From assembly GCA_003141335.1 (NCBI GenBank), contig PLLR01000045.1:16028-51344 (forward strand): DNA of 35,317 bases, written 5' to 3'. The position numbers and the translations under genes were made by a program. The notes beneath the pieces were generated by a model, which did no database searches, had not been told where the DNA came from, and saw only the letters and a list, made by a program, of their open reading frames with translations. The stretch is from Methanoregula sp. (GTDB lineage: Archaea; Halobacteriota; Methanomicrobia; Methanomicrobiales; Methanospirillaceae). Below, piece by piece: positions 28,456-35,317 of the stretch. The stretch's first letter is position 1; each line of letters begins with the position of its first letter.

Positions 28456-29079
28456 TTACACGACCCTTGATGTGGTCGATGCTTCGATACCATTGTCAGT
28501 GATAATGAATGGCAGGAGCCGCCGTGGTGACGCTGCGTTCTTCATCTTTTGTACTGCAAGCGTCCGCTCGATTTCAGCCTGGTTGACTTCTGAGCCGAAC
28601 TCAATAACAATATCTGCCGCCCGCATGATCCTGGTCATCTCGACTGGTTCATGGATCCCGGAATAAACAACGAACATGATATTTGCCCCGCGTTTTTTCA
28701 TCTCTTCGCGGGCAAGCCGCAGGAATTTTAAGGCTTCCTCGATCCCATACTTGATGATGATGGTCGAGAGCGAATCGACAACAATACGGCATCCAGCCAT
28801 CTGCGTCATGTACATTTCGGGGTGCAGTTCGGAAGCGTCGATCATTCCTGACTCGACATCTCCATCGTTCATCAGGTAGGTACCCTCCTCTCCATCCACC
28901 TTCCAGAACTGCATTGATGCAAGGTCTACTCCGGCAAGAGGGGTTCCGTACACCATTATAGTGGTGCCGATGGGAAACCCACCATCCAGCAACAGGTTAA
29001 GACCTACGATACCAGTAGAACGTTTTTTCGGTCTTTCGCTTACCGGGATATCCTGGATATGGCTTTTTATGTCTGCCAA
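28456..29079 (-). CDS. KaiC/RecA-like ATPase-fold protein with degenerate Walker A
   Basis: 207 aa. The opening STGIVGLNLLLDGGFPIGTTIMVYG is the KaiC/RadA-like entry, but the expected GxxGxGK(S/T) reads GTPLAGVDLAS (45-55) and lacks the catalytic lysine. A Walker B-like RIVVDSLST (98-106) and a further RecA-core region (REEMKKRGANIMFVVYSG) remain. It is therefore probably a non-hydrolysing regulatory or binding relative; similar single-domain KaiC-like proteins are common in methanogens. The start appears to be TTG at 29079, as a TGA lies just upstream in frame. A TATATA-like box stands about 12-20 bases further upstream. Confidence 0.8.
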   Translation of the reverse strand: MADIKSHIQDIPVSERPKKRSTGIVGLNLLLDGGFPIGTTIMVYGTPLAGVDLASMQFWKVDGEEGTYLMNDGDVESGMIDASELHPEMYMTQMAGCRIVVDSLSTIIIKYGIEEALKFLRLAREEMKKRGANIMFVVYSGIHEPVEMTRIMRAADIVIEFGSEVNQAEIERTLAVQKMKNAASPRRLLPFIITDNGIEASTTSRVV

Positions 29080-29090
29080 AATACTTCAGG

Positions 29091-29100
29091 CATATATTTT
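29091..29100 (-). promoter_or_regulatory. TATA box for the KaiC-like gene
   Basis: On the minus strand AAAATATATG ends 12 bases upstream of the TTG at 29079. Together with the absence of a ribosome site this points to a leaderless or nearly leaderless transcript. Confidence 0.4.
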
Positions 29101-29162
29101 TTTAACGCTTTAATAGGTTTGTGTGAGGTCTTGGCGGTTTGCAGGAAATTATTTGAGTTCTT

Positions 29163-30710
29163 TTATAGTACTGGGGAGAACCCGCCATATATTTCCCGCA
29201 GTGTCCTGCGGAGCAGCTTCCATCCGTGTACACGGGGGAGTGCCCCGACGATCATAAGGGTGCGTGGGATCTTGTAGCCGGCCAGGTGATCACGACACCA
29301 GGATTCAAGTTCTGATTCGGTAAAAGAAGTGCCCGGTTTGAGCACAACCGCTGCTACCACAACCTCCCCTTTACGCTCATCAGGTACACCAAAGACAGCG
29401 ACATCAGCTATTGCCGGGTGCTGGATGATCACATTCTCGACTTCGGTGGGATAGATCTTCCAGCCTGACATGATGATCATGTCTTTTTTCCGATCAGTGA
29501 TGTACAGGATACCTTCTTCATTGAGGTATCCGATATCACCGGTAAGGAACCAGCCATCCTTGCGGAACACTGCTGCTGTAGCTTTTGGCATATTCCAGTA
29601 CCCCTTCGCAACCGATGGGCCGCGGAGTGCGATCTCCCCCCGTTCACCAGACGCAAGTTCTTTTTCAGGATCATCGACGTCCACGATTGTCACTTCAGTA
29701 TAGCCAACTGCGACCCCAACGCTCTGGTAGTTCATGGTCAGTTGAGGGTATTCAGGGAGTGTGGTTGTTCCCGATCCAATCACAATCGTCTCCGATAACC
29801 CGTACGAATTGGCAACCGGGATGTGATAGCGATGGTCAAACGCTTCCCAGACTGCCGGGAGGAGCTGCCCCCCGCCGGAGATAATCACCCGGGCATTCGC
29901 AAGCCGTTTTCCGGTCCCTGGCGGAGAATGTACGAGCGAGTGGATGACCGGGGGCATGCCAGCGAGAACAGTTACCTTGTACTGTTCAGCAAGATCGAGA
30001 TACCGGTCGATCTCAAAGCGCTCCATCATTACGTACGTGCCTCCCGCCCGTAGCATGGAAAGGCCCCATGAAAAACCGACATGCCCCATCGGGTAGATGC
30101 CGAGATATACATCGTCCGGCCGGAGCCTGAGCGCTTCACGTTCAGCATCAAGAGCGGTCATCCAGTTGCCGTGGGTGAGCATCGCACCTTTGGGTTTTCC
30201 GGTTGTGCCGGCAGTATACTGGATATGGCAAAGGTCATCGGTGGCGCAGTTGACTGCCCGCAGGTTCGCTGGTGCCGGGGGAAATGATTCCCACGCAACC
30301 GATCCATTGCATGAGGTTTTGATGCAGATGATATGAGAAAGCGTGGGGGCGTTATGACGGATAGCGGAAACAACGTTCACACCCTGACTGTCCGTAATGA
30401 TCGCAGAGGCACCGGCATCGTTGATCGCGTGCAGCAGCTCCTCGCTGCGGTATACGATATTTGTCGGCACAGCTACTGCACCGATCCGCCAGATGGCAAA
30501 ATAACTGATGAGGTACTCGGGCGAGCTGTCAAGGTAGATGCAGACCCGGTCACCTTTTTTTACACCAAGGGTAACGAGTCCCTGCCCAATCCGGTTCATC
30601 TCGTCCCGGAGTTTCCCGTAACTGTACGTCTCGTTCCGTGTTGGGCAGATTAAGGCCGCTTTTGCTGCAGGAACGCTCTTTGCATCAAGCAGGGTGGTGA
30701 CGTTGGACAT
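29163..30710 (-). CDS. AMP-forming acyl-CoA synthetase
   Basis: 515 aa, adenylate-forming enzyme superfamily. The AMP/phosphate-binding loop YTAGTTGKPKG is at 165-175. The later NSYGLSETIV and the hinge region GWFLTGDIGYL...DRKKDMII are all present. The C-terminal lysine region reads LPRVHGWKLLRRTL, so the acyl-adenylating lysine is kept although the usual TGK is GWK. It activates a carboxylic acid to its CoA thioester. A fatty-acid or aryl substrate cannot be chosen from sequence. It is preceded by an AT-rich region and no clear ribosome site. Confidence 0.93.
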   Translation of the reverse strand: MSNVTTLLDAKSVPAAKAALICPTRNETYSYGKLRDEMNRIGQGLVTLGVKKGDRVCIYLDSSPEYLISYFAIWRIGAVAVPTNIVYRSEELLHAINDAGASAIITDSQGVNVVSAIRHNAPTLSHIICIKTSCNGSVAWESFPPAPANLRAVNCATDDLCHIQYTAGTTGKPKGAMLTHGNWMTALDAEREALRLRPDDVYLGIYPMGHVGFSWGLSMLRAGGTYVMMERFEIDRYLDLAEQYKVTVLAGMPPVIHSLVHSPPGTGKRLANARVIISGGGQLLPAVWEAFDHRYHIPVANSYGLSETIVIGSGTTTLPEYPQLTMNYQSVGVAVGYTEVTIVDVDDPEKELASGERGEIALRGPSVAKGYWNMPKATAAVFRKDGWFLTGDIGYLNEEGILYITDRKKDMIIMSGWKIYPTEVENVIIQHPAIADVAVFGVPDERKGEVVVAAVVLKPGTSFTESELESWCRDHLAGYKIPRTLMIVGALPRVHGWKLLRRTLREIYGGFSPVL

Positions 30711-30960
30711 GGCAGTGCCGGAGGTTTTTTGGTAAAAGAAAATGGGTCGTTGGGGTATTTAGGTGTGCATTATTCTGGATCAGGCAACGCGGTTCACTGA
30801 GAGCAAACCTTCTGAAATAGTTGTCCATTTTTTTTAAGATTTTCCTTATGTTTTTCCGCGAGATTGTTGTCGATGCGGTGTACAAGGACCGCTGCTTCAT
30901 GCAGAAATGCAGGGGCAAGCTATTTCTGTAACAACTTCCGTATTATCTGTCCTGACACTT

Positions 30961-31260
30961 ATGGCTGAAGATACCCAGAATCCACAACCATCGCCGAATT
31001 CTCAAAACGTCCAAAGCACCCGGAGAGATGCTCCCCGGTATCATGCCAGCCGCAGGCACGATAGCTACCGGGAACAGGCTCCACGGCCGGCAGAAAAGCC
31101 GGAGGAAAAACCGCAGGAGTCAAAAGAACTCAGTCTGGATGATGAAGAGACTGAGCAGGACAGGAGCTCTGCCCCGTCCCGGCAGTCCCGGGGAGGCAAT
31201 CGGGGTAAGCCGCCGAAACGGGTCATCGAGGAATGGGCCAACGATCCCTACTGTGAATAA
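30961..31260 (+). CDS. short disordered, charged protein of unknown function
   Basis: 99 aa from the ATG at 30961 (an in-frame ATG at 30907 gives an unlikely leader). The body is low in hydrophobic residues and rich in R, E, P, S and Q, so probably unstructured. It ends in a more ordered GKPPKRVIEEWANDPYCE tail with one terminal cysteine. No family is recognised. Codon use resembles neighbouring genes more than random sequence, but there is no ribosome site. Confidence 0.5.
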   Translation: MAEDTQNPQPSPNSQNVQSTRRDAPRYHASRRHDSYREQAPRPAEKPEEKPQESKELSLDDEETEQDRSSAPSRQSRGGNRGKPPKRVIEEWANDPYCE

Positions 31261-31524
31261 TGGGGCCGGGTTCGGTTCGGGTTGTAATGATACCCGGGAA
31301 TTCTGGATCTTTTTTGGATTTTTTTGCGCAGATATTTTCCAGAGATATTCTCCCGGGAAATTTTTTTCCGGTAAAAAAACCGGAGAATAATGTGGGAAAA
31401 AATTGGGTGTGGTTGTGAAATCTCCCCCTCATTTCCACACCCTTTAATATGAGCGAATTCAAGCCATTTTCAGATCGAAAAACACGAGTTAACTCCAATC
31501 GCAAAAACCCCTAATCCGGGCATT

Positions 31525-31914
31525 TTACAGGCTGCGATTTTTAGATCTCTTCAAAATGGGCTCCGTTTTGGTATCTACGAGGCCCTGTTTGATCGAAAAC
31601 TCCAGGGAGTATTTGCATGCAAAGATGTTTTCCGGATCACTTCTGGCAAACTGGCACAATTCCGGCATGACCTTGCGATCACCATGGTGACATAAGACAC
31701 ATCCGGGCCCTATGCAGGCTCCGATTCGACAGATCGGAGCCCATAAAACGCTCCGATTATCGAAGTCCTCTAAAAATCGTTCTTTTGGCAATCGGACGAA
31801 TTTATAGCTTCTCGAAAAGCGGGCAGATACTGAGAAACCGGACTGATCTGGGGCAAGTGGCGGGCGATCCCAAAAAAGGCTGCCGGAACGCTTCCAGAGG
31901 GCGTTTGCGGGCAT
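31525..31914 (-). CDS. doubtful Cys-rich ORF
   Basis: 129 codons, ATG at 31914. The product has a compact cysteine/histidine patch CRIGACIGPGCVLCHHGD (about residues 62-79) and two more cysteines beyond, with a hydrophilic C terminus (KRSKNRSL). The patch could hold a metal, and the second half looks more protein-like than random. No family is recognised and no ribosome site is seen. It lies exactly between two 11-bp direct repeats. It may be a real small gene, a decayed one, or chance. Confidence 0.3.
   Translation of the reverse strand: MPANALWKRSGSLFWDRPPLAPDQSGFSVSARFSRSYKFVRLPKERFLEDFDNRSVLWAPICRIGACIGPGCVLCHHGDRKVMPELCQFARSDPENIFACKYSLEFSIKQGLVDTKTEPILKRSKNRSL
31717..31741. repeat. 9-bp perfect inverted repeat
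   Basis: GGCTCCGAT (31717-31725) and ATCGGAGCC (31733-31741) pair across a 7-base loop; GCTCCGATT recurs at 31750-31758. It lies inside the doubtful ORF. Confidence 0.45.
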
Positions 31915-31934
31915 TTTATGCGCCCCAGATTAAG

Positions 31935-31954
31935 CCCCGTTTTTAAAAAGGGGG
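31935..31954. repeat. 20-bp palindrome with one mismatch
   Basis: CCCCGTTTTTAAAAAGGGGG is self-complementary except at one pair. It is 21 bases upstream of the minus-strand ORF start and could be its TATA region or a bidirectional terminator. Confidence 0.4.
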
Positions 31955-32203
31955 TTGAATTGCCCTATTAATTGTTCACGATCTGTCATTTTTTTGGCGG
32001 GATGCAAAAGCGGGACACCGGGAGTGGTGGTTGAATGGAAATGTGTCACCGCGAGTGATGATTGGAGAAAAATCCGCGATTTTTTTTATTTCCGGACAAT
32101 AAAAAATCTGGCAAGAAATTTTTTTTGAAAATTAAAAAAAATCCCCAAATTATTTTCGGTAACATCATATCCTCCCAAAAAAATTGTAAGTGTTAGGAGT
32201 CGG

Positions 32204-32917
32204 GTGTTTTCTTTGAGATGTAGTATATGCGGTACAGATAATCCGGATAAGAACCGGTTCTGCAGCAGCTGCGGCAAACCCTTGCCAAAACCGCAGCCGC
32301 TGACGAACAACATGCCCAATGGGGCCGGGCAGACACCGGTTCCTGCAGCTCCCAAAGGATCGGGATTGGGTCTGGTCCTCCTGATTGGAGGAGTACTATT
32401 CCTTATCGCAGTTATTGCGGTGGGGTTCTTTGTCATCCTCCCGCTGCTTGAAGAAGAAACGCCGTCGTGGGGAGATTCGGGCATTTCCTCTGGGAGTCTC
32501 AGTCTTCCAAATGACCTGACAAATTCTGATGATTCCAATCAGACCGTTGATTCATCAGGCTCCCTGGTTTCAGGATCCGGTGAAAAATCGGGATCCTTAT
32601 CGGTCACTGCAACTGCGACACTAAGGGTTTCACAACCGGTTCAAGGCAGCAGTAGTACTACATCAAATGATCCCATTATTGGGACGTGGGACATCGGCAC
32701 GACCGGGATGCAGATGCAGTTCGGTGCGGATGGCGTGGCCACCCTGCGGGACTCCACATCGGGATACCATTCCACGCTTTCATGGGAGAAGATATCTGAT
32801 GGCAGATACCGGCTCCAGTCTGCTTCAGGTACAGGCAGCCCCGTCCTGATCTCCGATCCCCTTGCAGGAATGATGTATTTTGAAGATTATTCGACAGTGT
32901 TCATATGGAAGGGCTGA
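32204..32917 (+). CDS. zinc-ribbon membrane protein with external C-terminal domain
   Basis: 237 aa, GTG start at 32204 with TAGGAG upstream. An N-terminal zinc ribbon has C6, C9, C20 and C23 (CSIC...CSSC). A Pro-rich linker and one transmembrane helix (about 54-79) follow, then a Ser/Thr/Gly-rich spacer (about 90-155). The C-terminal beta-domain (about 155-237: DPIIGTWDIGTTG...) has a lipocalin-like GTW start. The ribbon would face the cytoplasm and the beta-domain the outside. Function unknown. The next gene starts 6 bases after its stop, so they are likely co-transcribed. Confidence 0.75.
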   Translation: MFSLRCSICGTDNPDKNRFCSSCGKPLPKPQPLTNNMPNGAGQTPVPAAPKGSGLGLVLLIGGVLFLIAVIAVGFFVILPLLEEETPSWGDSGISSGSLSLPNDLTNSDDSNQTVDSSGSLVSGSGEKSGSLSVTATATLRVSQPVQGSSSTTSNDPIIGTWDIGTTGMQMQFGADGVATLRDSTSGYHSTLSWEKISDGRYRLQSASGTGSPVLISDPLAGMMYFEDYSTVFIWKG

Positions 32918-32923
32918 TCCTCT

Positions 32924-33727
32924 ATGAAAAAAATTTCCTCACTATGGTATGGTATCGCTGTACATGCTCTGGCGGCAGTGATTGTGTCCAATATCCTCTG
33001 CTCATTCCTGATAATGCCGGCAGCCGCTGCCGAAACATCCGAGAACTGGCTTTTGACGCAGTTGAAAGATACCAATGGGCCAGTCGATAAGGCAGGTGGA
33101 CAGAACGTTGCCGGGGGGACCATATACCTCCCTGAAATTATTCCATATCCCCCTTATGTCACGGACAATCCTGGGAACAGGGGGACCTATACCGGCCCCT
33201 GCCCGATCGGCGGAAATGCCCCCCAGTTGCGCCAGACGGGATTATCCACCGGGGCAGAGTGCCGGGGAGCCTGTGGCATGGACTGCCCTGCAGAGCGGTG
33301 CAAACCGATGGACGACTGGACGATAGCTGTGGATGGGGGTACCTGCACCTATAAGGATGTGGTCACGTGCGACTCCCACCAAGGCTGCCGCGACCATGAT
33401 GCCTGCTATGATTACTGCTCGGAAAAAACAGGAGAGACCTCAATCTTATTCGGTTCCTGCCACGGAGTATGCAACTCGCGGTGCTATGCTGAGTACGGGA
33501 TCTTCACCTGTGGCAAATGGGCAGCTCTCCCGGGCAGCTTCGCCAGTTCTCTCGGCTGGGTTCAAGATTCTTTTACCGCTCCACTGACGGATAAATCCCT
33601 CATATTCTCGGATGTACCGGTGTTTACCTCCAACACCGAAACATATTGTTTTAAAAATATGGGGGAATGCATCACCTATGATGCTGACGGGAACCCCCAT
33701 ACCGAGAAGTACTCAAGCTCCCCATAA
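32924..33727 (+). CDS. secreted Cys-rich protein with phospholipase A2-like motif
   Basis: 267 aa. The N-terminal signal peptide (about 1-36, ending MPAAAAE) predicts export. At least 15 cysteines lie between 93 and 196. The key segment GCRDHDACYDYC (154-165) resembles the catalytic helix of secreted phospholipase A2: C155, catalytic-type H158-D159 dyad, C161, Y162 and C165, preceded by C149. Further cysteines (179, 183, 187) could complete the disulfide frame. A canonical YGCYCG calcium loop is not obvious, so activity is uncertain. It sits 6 bases after the zinc-ribbon membrane protein gene. Confidence 0.7.
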   Translation: MKKISSLWYGIAVHALAAVIVSNILCSFLIMPAAAAETSENWLLTQLKDTNGPVDKAGGQNVAGGTIYLPEIIPYPPYVTDNPGNRGTYTGPCPIGGNAPQLRQTGLSTGAECRGACGMDCPAERCKPMDDWTIAVDGGTCTYKDVVTCDSHQGCRDHDACYDYCSEKTGETSILFGSCHGVCNSRCYAEYGIFTCGKWAALPGSFASSLGWVQDSFTAPLTDKSLIFSDVPVFTSNTETYCFKNMGECITYDADGNPHTEKYSSSP

Positions 33728-33785
33728 TTTTTTTACAACACCCGATCCCCTTTGCTTATATTTTCCGGTGTGCTACCCTGTGAGC

Positions 33786-34355
33786 ATGAACTATCCGGCA
33801 CCTTCCCTGAAAAGCAGGCTGTTCTCTCTCACGTGCATTGCAATCCTGCTCCTCGTATTCCCGGTTGCAGCAGCAGATAGCACAGACCAGGCACGCCAGC
33901 TCTACCGGCAGGGGGAAAATGCACTTTACGCCGGGCAATACCAGCTAGCAATCGATGCGTTTGACCAGTGCCTTGCCATCCTCCCGTCAGCAACAAGTCT
34001 CGCTCCCTACAAGGATTTCACGGAAGCGGATGTCTGGACAAACCAAGGCGATGCCTATATCGGGCTGAAGCAGTACGAGAACGCGGTTGCCGCCCTTGAA
34101 ACGGCGACAACTCTCGATCCTTCGTATGCAGAAGCGTTCCAGATCAAGGCTCAGGCACTCCGGGCACTGAACCGGACTGCCGAGGCAGAGGCTGCAGAAA
34201 CCAGTATGGAGCGGGCGGCACAGAAACGCCTGGACGATTTCGACAAGGCAGCGTTTGCAAAACCGACGACAAAAGCGGATCTGCCATTGATTGTACCGGC
34301 TCTTGGAATGCTGGGGGGCGTCCTGCTCTGTTCAACCTGCCGAAAAACCCAGTGA
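33786..34355 (+). CDS. exported TPR-repeat protein with C-terminal membrane anchor
   Basis: 189 aa from the ATG at 33786; a longer open frame to 33612 overlaps the preceding gene and is unlikely. It has a signal peptide (LFSLTCIAILLLVFPVAAA), then about three tetratricopeptide repeats (residues 30-150: ARQLYRQGENALYAGQYQLAI; VWTNQGDAYIGLKQYENAV; and AEAFQIKAQALRALNRTAEA). A C-terminal hydrophobic helix with a basic tail (VPALGMLGGVLLCSTCRKTQ) follows. It is probably an envelope scaffold for protein-protein contact. CTTATATTTT about 27 bases upstream suggests its own promoter and a leaderless message. Confidence 0.8.
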   Translation: MNYPAPSLKSRLFSLTCIAILLLVFPVAAADSTDQARQLYRQGENALYAGQYQLAIDAFDQCLAILPSATSLAPYKDFTEADVWTNQGDAYIGLKQYENAVAALETATTLDPSYAEAFQIKAQALRALNRTAEAEAAETSMERAAQKRLDDFDKAAFAKPTTKADLPLIVPALGMLGGVLLCSTCRKTQ

Positions 34356-34771
34356 ACTCCGTGTAAAAGCACGACAAATTCAATAAATCTATATCAAAAA
34401 CCCCCTTTTTTATAACGTGAAAACCTGAACGCGTTCCATGGAGAATCCGTCCTCACCTCCAAACCTCCAGCGGACTTGCCCCGCCGCAGTTTTTCCGGGA
34501 TATCTATCATCCATGACACCAATACCAGGTTCCGTGATCACCTCCACGGAGAATCATACACACAGCCACTGAGCCGAAAAAAAGAGATTGCCGGAAATTA
34601 TTTTCATTTACGGTAACGAACCACGACCATGGCAGTAAGAAGCGCTGCCACTATAACCCACAAAGGAACCGGCAGGTCGAAAAGACTGCCAACCGCTGCC
34701 CGCGGGATTCTGCATGGATTCCGTGTACGGTGCAGGGGTATATTATAGGTAAGCTTGTGATCCGGGAATAC
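34356..34771. other. intergenic region with decayed fragment
   Basis: 416 bases between convergent genes. Just after the TPR gene a T-run (about 34406-34411) may end transcription. The right half carries the decayed surface-protein tail at 34604-34742. Nothing else is recognised. Confidence 0.4.
34604..34742 (-). pseudogene. frameshifted C-terminal tail of a surface protein
   Basis: On the minus strand one frame reads YTPAPYTESMQNPAGSGW and a second frame continues SLFDLPVPLWVIVAALLTAM then VVVRYRK and a TGA at 34604-34606. Thr/Pro-rich text, a short hydrophobic helix, a basic end and stop form the usual C-terminal anchor of archaeal surface proteins. One frameshift near 34680-34690 is needed to join the halves, and no upstream body is visible. 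It is read as a gene remnant. Confidence 0.4.
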
Positions 34772-35317
34772 TTACCGGCCGTCAAGCAGACCGGTCACAT
34801 CCCCCGCCTTGACGATCTTAACCCCGATATTCTGCATGTCCCGGATATTGGCCCGGTGCACCTCATCTGATGCTGCCCCGGTCGCATCATCGACCAGCAC
34901 AACCGGGTAATTGTAGGCAATACCATCGAAAACGGTGGTCCGTATGCAGTTTGGGGTCTGGATACCGCAGACCACAAGGTTCGTTACGCCGAGGGTCCGG
35001 AGCATCAGGTCGAGTTCCGTGCCGATGAACGCACTCATCCGGGTCTTGGTGAGTACATAATCTCCCACCTGTGGTGCCAGTTCATCTATGACCGCGGCTC
35101 CTGAGGTTCCGGCAACCGCAAAGGGCTGCTTCCGGAAAAGCTCCTGCCGGATGATCTCCACATCCGAACCGTCCGGCCGGTGCACCCGCAGGATATGAAA
35201 GACCGGCAGGGATCGTTTCCTGAATTCAGCCAGCACAGACTGGATTTTGGGTATTACGGCAGAGGCTCCGGCAACTCTCATCGACTTGCCTTCCAGCACG
35301 AAATCGTTCTGCATATC
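34772..35317 (-). CDS. isochorismatase-family cysteine hydrolase, cut by the right edge
   Basis: At least 181 residues; the window ends inside the N-terminal motif DMQNDFV, so the true start lies beyond it and the first few residues are missing. The catalytic triad of the family is present: Asp in DMQNDF, Lys in LTKTRMSAF, and Cys in CGIQTPNCIRTTVFDG. The cis-peptide VVCGIQT loop is normal. Members hydrolyse nicotinamide, isochorismate or related amides; the substrate is not predictable. Confidence 0.9.
   Translation of the reverse strand, partial: DMQNDFVLEGKSMRVAGASAVIPKIQSVLAEFRKRSLPVFHILRVHRPDGSDVEIIRQELFRKQPFAVAGTSGAAVIDELAPQVGDYVLTKTRMSAFIGTELDLMLRTLGVTNLVVCGIQTPNCIRTTVFDGIAYNYPVVLVDDATGAASDEVHRANIRDMQNIGVKIVKAGDVTGLLDGR

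Follow-up and report, generated by a model that had tools for sequence, protein, structure and literature searches.

A cysteine-rich archaeal protein family with a phospholipase A2-like His-Asp motif and, in seven genomes, a conserved partner gene

A two-gene cassette in Methanoregula

The window, the whole 35,317-nt stretch of Methanoregula sp. DNA that we analysed, carries at 32924..33727 on the forward strand an open reading frame, running from ATG to TAA, for a secreted protein of 267 residues that is like phospholipase A2 (PLA2) in its central motif (GCRDHDACYDYC). Homologues are found, and the reading frame is a genuine gene. The protein begins MKK, continues with a hydrophobic run and reaches PAAAA|ET, which by inspection reads as a signal peptide of residues 1-36 (32924..33031), in agreement with the initial annotation, where the protein had been called secreted. 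Four elements then make up its core. The first is the loop CRGACGMDC (C113-C121; 33260..33286), a candidate Ca2+-binding loop in which C113, G115, C117, G118 and C121 are invariant in 15 of 15 family members. AlphaFold predicts a beta meander after it (residues 126-151; 33299..33376), then a helix bearing the His-Asp (HD) pair (residues 153-169; 33380..33430), and finally a second helix (residues 178-191; 33455..33496) that reads C179-H..C183-N184..C187. Within the HD helix, GC155..H158-D159.C161-Y162-D163.C165, residues C155, H158, D159, C161 and C165 are invariant. H158 and D159 themselves fall in G-C-R-D-H-D-A-C-Y-D-Y-C at 33383-33418, the longer string being SHQ-G154-C155-R-D-H158-D159-A-C161-Y162-D163-Y-C165. 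A search of the source genome (2.0 Mb, 125 contigs) for DNA that could encode C-x-x-H-D-x-C-Y gave two hits, of which the second lies out of frame within a 412-aa ORF; the HD motif of the 267-residue protein is beyond chance.

Directly upstream on the same strand, with 6 nt between its end and the PLA2-like ATG, lies a partner gene for a protein of 237 aa (32204..32917), to which the initial annotation did not extend. Its product consists of a zinc ribbon (PF13240, E 2.5e-6), one hydrophobic transmembrane helix, a linker rich in Ser and Thr and, at the C-terminus, a domain of 80 residues that starts GTW; neither Pfam nor NCBIfam has a match for this outer domain. A run of seven T residues immediately after the PLA2-like stop codon (33728..33734) might mark the end of a two-gene transcript. 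In L002, L042, L043, L044, L045 and G048 a homologue of the partner likewise directly precedes the PLA2-like gene; in all, seven genomes have the conserved partner gene in this place. When 108 genomes of the home taxonomic family were searched, strong matches to the GTW domain (E <= 3.3e-30) were confined to seven, all with an adjoining PLA2-like gene, and the remaining partner matches were weak or fell on the zinc ribbon, helix or linker. Since the GTW domain is strong in exactly the seven genomes with the adjoining gene, the partner and the PLA2-like gene form a cassette. The partner is missing from three more carriers of the same taxonomic family (G006, G046 and G079), as it is from the distant carriers examined. 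Possible roles for the partner are to anchor the secreted protein, set its position or control it. A Rosetta-stone link was considered and set aside, as the GTW domain has no significant similarity to the N-terminal domains of L018 and L031 or to the C-terminal domain of L030. The block around the cassette (28459-35314) also encodes a KaiC-like ATPase, an AMP-binding ligase, a TPR protein and an isochorismatase-fold protein, and is common to G067; judged by the TPR gene, G067 alone among the genomes searched within the genus shares the gene order around the cassette.

An unnamed family with a constrained core

By sequence relatedness, the 267-residue protein founds an unnamed family of 15 related, distinct proteins from Halobacteriota-type genomes. 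A homologue search, one of the checks suggested at the outset, returned relatives with E down to 5e-75, and in the resulting family the HD pair does not vary. Among the 108 genomes of the home family, 11 gave matches in the protein search at E <= 0.01, or 10 once L011 was removed as spurious (it lacks the motif, and the profile did not match its genome). When the phylum and two further families were searched by profile, G372, G168, G190, G496 and G487 joined the set, while the weakest matches of one of these searches, L022-L024, were discarded for want of the motif. The spread is patchy, at 10/108 in the home family, 10/232 in the order, and 2/51 and 3/50 in the two other families. These figures come from the archaeal genomes searched and say nothing on restriction to archaea. 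Named members include proteins on JANXYM010000119.1 (a Methanomicrobiales archaeon MAG) and JACTVG010000005.1 (a Methanoregulaceae archaeon MAG). A contig scan with the window protein alone matched just two close archaeal relatives, and the viral contigs, phages and plasmids searched held no confirmed relatives, on which ground we reject an origin in any of these; a Streptomyces plasmid match (E 9) lies on the strand opposite an annotated gene and was taken as chance.

Conservation across the relatives is limited to the core. In an alignment of the 15 distinct members, whose pairwise identities range from 32 to 78%, 13 cysteines never change and one more, C93, is absent once. Beyond the cysteines, just 7 of 94 well-occupied core columns are invariant (P100, G115, G118, Y143, H158, D159 and W199), which places H158 and D159, present in 15/15 members, among the most constrained residues of the family. 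Position 154 is Gly in 14 members and Ala in one, position 162 is Tyr in 14 and Phe in one, and position 184 is Asn in 11, the window protein included, Asp in the other four, and nothing else.

Outside the core, the relatives differ in architecture. Four members carry InlB-like repeats (PF18998). The C-terminal end of L020 resembles a PEP-CTERM tail (PF07589, E 0.0025, below the cut-off), and the tail of L008 looks PGF-CTERM-like by eye. For the members concerned, these repeats and sorting-type tails point to the cell surface as the site of action. L021 (1-2541, reverse strand) is a large extracellular-type protein that combines an N-terminal rhodanese domain with the PLA2-like core and further domains, and the distant members L018 (1483-2334, reverse strand) and L031 (1420-2373, reverse strand) begin with a GSW-type domain. 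We asked whether the window protein is a truncated or frameshifted version of its longer relatives and rejected the idea: the C-terminal parts of L002 and L003 were not found downstream of the window gene, which suggests that the extensions are lineage-specific.

Register, fold and the relation to secreted PLA2

Against bovine pancreatic PLA2, whose sequence was checked against 1bp2 and which served as the reference for register, the shared features are a Cys at H-3 and at H+3, a Tyr at H+4, an upstream Cys-Gly and a Cys-[Asn/Asp] in the next predicted helix. On this mapping C155 would correspond to C45, H158 to H48, D159 to D49, C161 to C51 and Y162 to Y52, with C117-G118 standing for C29-G30 of the secreted enzymes (sPLA2) and C183-N184 for C98-D99. 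The initial annotation had likened the HD helix and its cysteines closely to the sPLA2 active helix. The motif is real, its HD pair is invariant in 15/15 and a helix is predicted for it, but the first Cys of the sPLA2 Cys-Cys pair is G154 here. The strict sPLA2 pattern CCxxHDxC is thus absent from the 267-residue protein, Gly taking the place of C44, and with it the C44-C105 bridge is missing. Putative disulfides are C117-C155, C161-C183 and C165-C179; the last two have the same index sum (344), which is self-consistent with bridged antiparallel helices. The paired helices whose absence would have spoken against the likeness are predicted, at 153-169 and then 178-191. Of the Ca2+ loop that was to be looked for, there is a Cys/Gly loop upstream of the HD helix, with C117-G118 invariant; Ca2+ binding by it is something we infer.

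Similarity in sequence to sPLA2 stops at the motif. The family profile scores 22.9 against bovine PLA2 over an alignment of just 12 residues around it, above all 200 shuffles with the cysteines fixed (maximum 18.3) and, narrowly, above all 200 full shuffles (maximum 22.8). None of the 15 members matches a PLA2 family of Pfam at E up to 10, PF06951 and PF09056 included, the family profile has no PDB sequence match, and the 267-residue protein has no sequence match in Pfam, NCBIfam, PHROG or the PDB. The AlphaFold model built on the 15-sequence alignment puts H158 and D159 in the N-terminal part of the first helix, with pLDDT in blocks of 82-96 over most of the core and 73 overall. A core-only model (pLDDT 72) brought no gain over it and also shows the HD helix and the beta meander. 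The comparison with PLA2 folds that had been proposed did not bear out the likeness: Foldseek against the PDB gave no significant PLA2 match for either of these shallow models, the sole PLA2 listed for the full model being 8k1w (rank 41, E 6.2, probability 0.07) and none being listed for the core. The same search against a viral library returned nothing significant. As the models are shallow, this failure is weak negative evidence. With similarity limited to the motif and no significant fold match, we call the protein PLA2-like in motif but do not class it as a PLA2.

Several known groups of PLA2 come close to these proteins. Groups I/II (PF00068; 1bp2) share the HD pair, the Cys at H-3 and H+3, the Tyr at H+4, the Cys-Gly loop, the Cys-[Asp/Asn], the wealth of disulfides and secretion; unlike them, the window family has no profile match, Gly for the first Cys of the pair, mostly Asn for Asp99 and a predicted beta meander between loop and HD helix. 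The group XII enzymes (PF06951) likewise have a loop rich in Cys, an inserted stretch ahead of the HD helix and a CxxHDxCY motif. This likeness is to be read as a lead only, and the family has no PF06951 match at E up to 10. Enzymes of group XIV have few cysteines. The latter (PF09056), found in prokaryotes and fungi, include prokaryotic secreted PLA2s with a catalytic His/Asp dyad (PMC11525133); the window family resembles them in being prokaryotic and secreted and in its His and Asp, and differs in having no PF09056 profile match. Tox-PLA2 domains of polymorphic toxins are exported prokaryotic PLA2-type domains of microbial conflict with the motifs DxC[ST] and CxxHxxxYxN (PMC3482391), which are partly matched here, C155-H158-Y162 fitting CxxHxxxY, although the family again has no PLA2 profile match. 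The initial annotation was also right that such an enzyme would be unusual in these archaea, since PF00068 and PF09056 are found in none of 393 sampled genomes of the phylum. A sub-threshold PF00068 match in G129 runs antisense to an aminotransferase-like ORF and was rejected.

A possible esterase and its alternatives

Overall, the reading we prefer, tentatively, is a secreted or surface-tethered, Ca2+-dependent, PLA2-like esterase directed against foreign ester lipids. The protein would be exported and its PLA2-like core held by about seven disulfides. The C113-C121 loop could bind Ca2+, and the HD helix would supply the general base, H158, and a Ca2+ ligand, D159, while the antiparallel second helix would place N184, Asp in some relatives, behind the histidine; how sPLA2 uses His48/Asp99, Asp49 and the loop has been described (PMC2248580). 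The protein would be a Ca2+-dependent esterase, or a descendant of one, whose substrates are ester-linked phospholipids or other acyl esters of foreign origin, for example those of bacterial neighbours. Its site of action would be the cell surface or its vicinity, alongside the membrane-anchored partner whose gene ends 6 nt upstream; relatives might reach that location through a C-terminal surface domain or sorting tail of their own. Archaeal lipids are ether-linked, so a PLA2 in these cells would find its target in foreign ester lipids, and the producer, whose own lipids are no substrate, would require no self-protection. Against an esterase stand the Asn that 11 of 15 members have in place of Asp99, the absence of a PLA2 profile or fold match, and the Gly in place of C44. 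At the putative dyad Asp of the AAV9 PLA2 (D97), an Asp-to-Asn change was poorly maintained in selection (PMC12455919).

The same Asn is what lends weight to a second, less probable explanation, in which a PLA2-derived module has lost catalysis, retains the scaffold of disulfides and perhaps Ca2+, and works as a surface binding or adhesion domain for a lipid, glycan or protein ligand. The fusions to InlB-like repeats in four members, to rhodanese in L021 and to sorting-type tails suit such a role, as does the membrane anchor of the partner. However, H158 and D159 never vary, although a domain with a purely structural role ought to be able to lose the general base, and position 184 is confined to Asn or Asp. 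It is unlikely, we think, that the fold is an unrelated disulfide-rich one in which the GCxxHDxCYDxC helix arose independently, for instance as a metal site or structural cap: the lack of a PLA2 profile or fold match, the predicted beta meander that separates the loop from the HD helix and a profile similarity limited to 12 residues all agree with it, yet it leaves several features in PLA2 register (the Cys at H-3, the Asp, the Cys at H+3, the Tyr at H+4, the upstream Cys-Gly and the Cys-[Asn/Asp]) and two consecutive predicted helices to coincidence. That the protein is a secreted effector and its partner an inhibitor or immunity protein is very improbable, for although the two genes form a tight cassette with the partner first and the partner's outer domain co-occurs with the gene in seven genomes, cells with ether lipids should need no immunity to a PLA2, and three other carriers of the same taxonomic family, like the distant carriers examined, have no partner.

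Returning to the esterase, it would be a further and unlikely step to a novel PLA2 family of archaea, often displayed at the surface and in some genomes encoded as a two-gene cassette with a membrane partner, by which methanogens and their relatives hydrolyse bacterial ester phospholipids that they themselves lack. Regardless of that step, the family is a concrete candidate for an archaeal enzyme acting on bacterial phospholipids, and one in which a specific residue can be mutated. An active protein would be a lipid weapon or a scavenging enzyme to which the producing cell is inherently resistant; an inactive one would be a PLA2-like scaffold that archaea have put to new use as a surface module. 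In both cases the family is without a Pfam or NCBIfam match. There is a parallel in the archaeal peptidoglycan hydrolases that a 2025 study tested for killing and found to kill bacteria (PMC12352652): there too an archaeal enzyme attacks a substrate that its producer lacks, albeit with another target and from another family. The same study points to membrane lipids as another exploitable difference and explicitly proposes that archaeal genomes be searched for enzymes with bacterial phospholipids as substrates.
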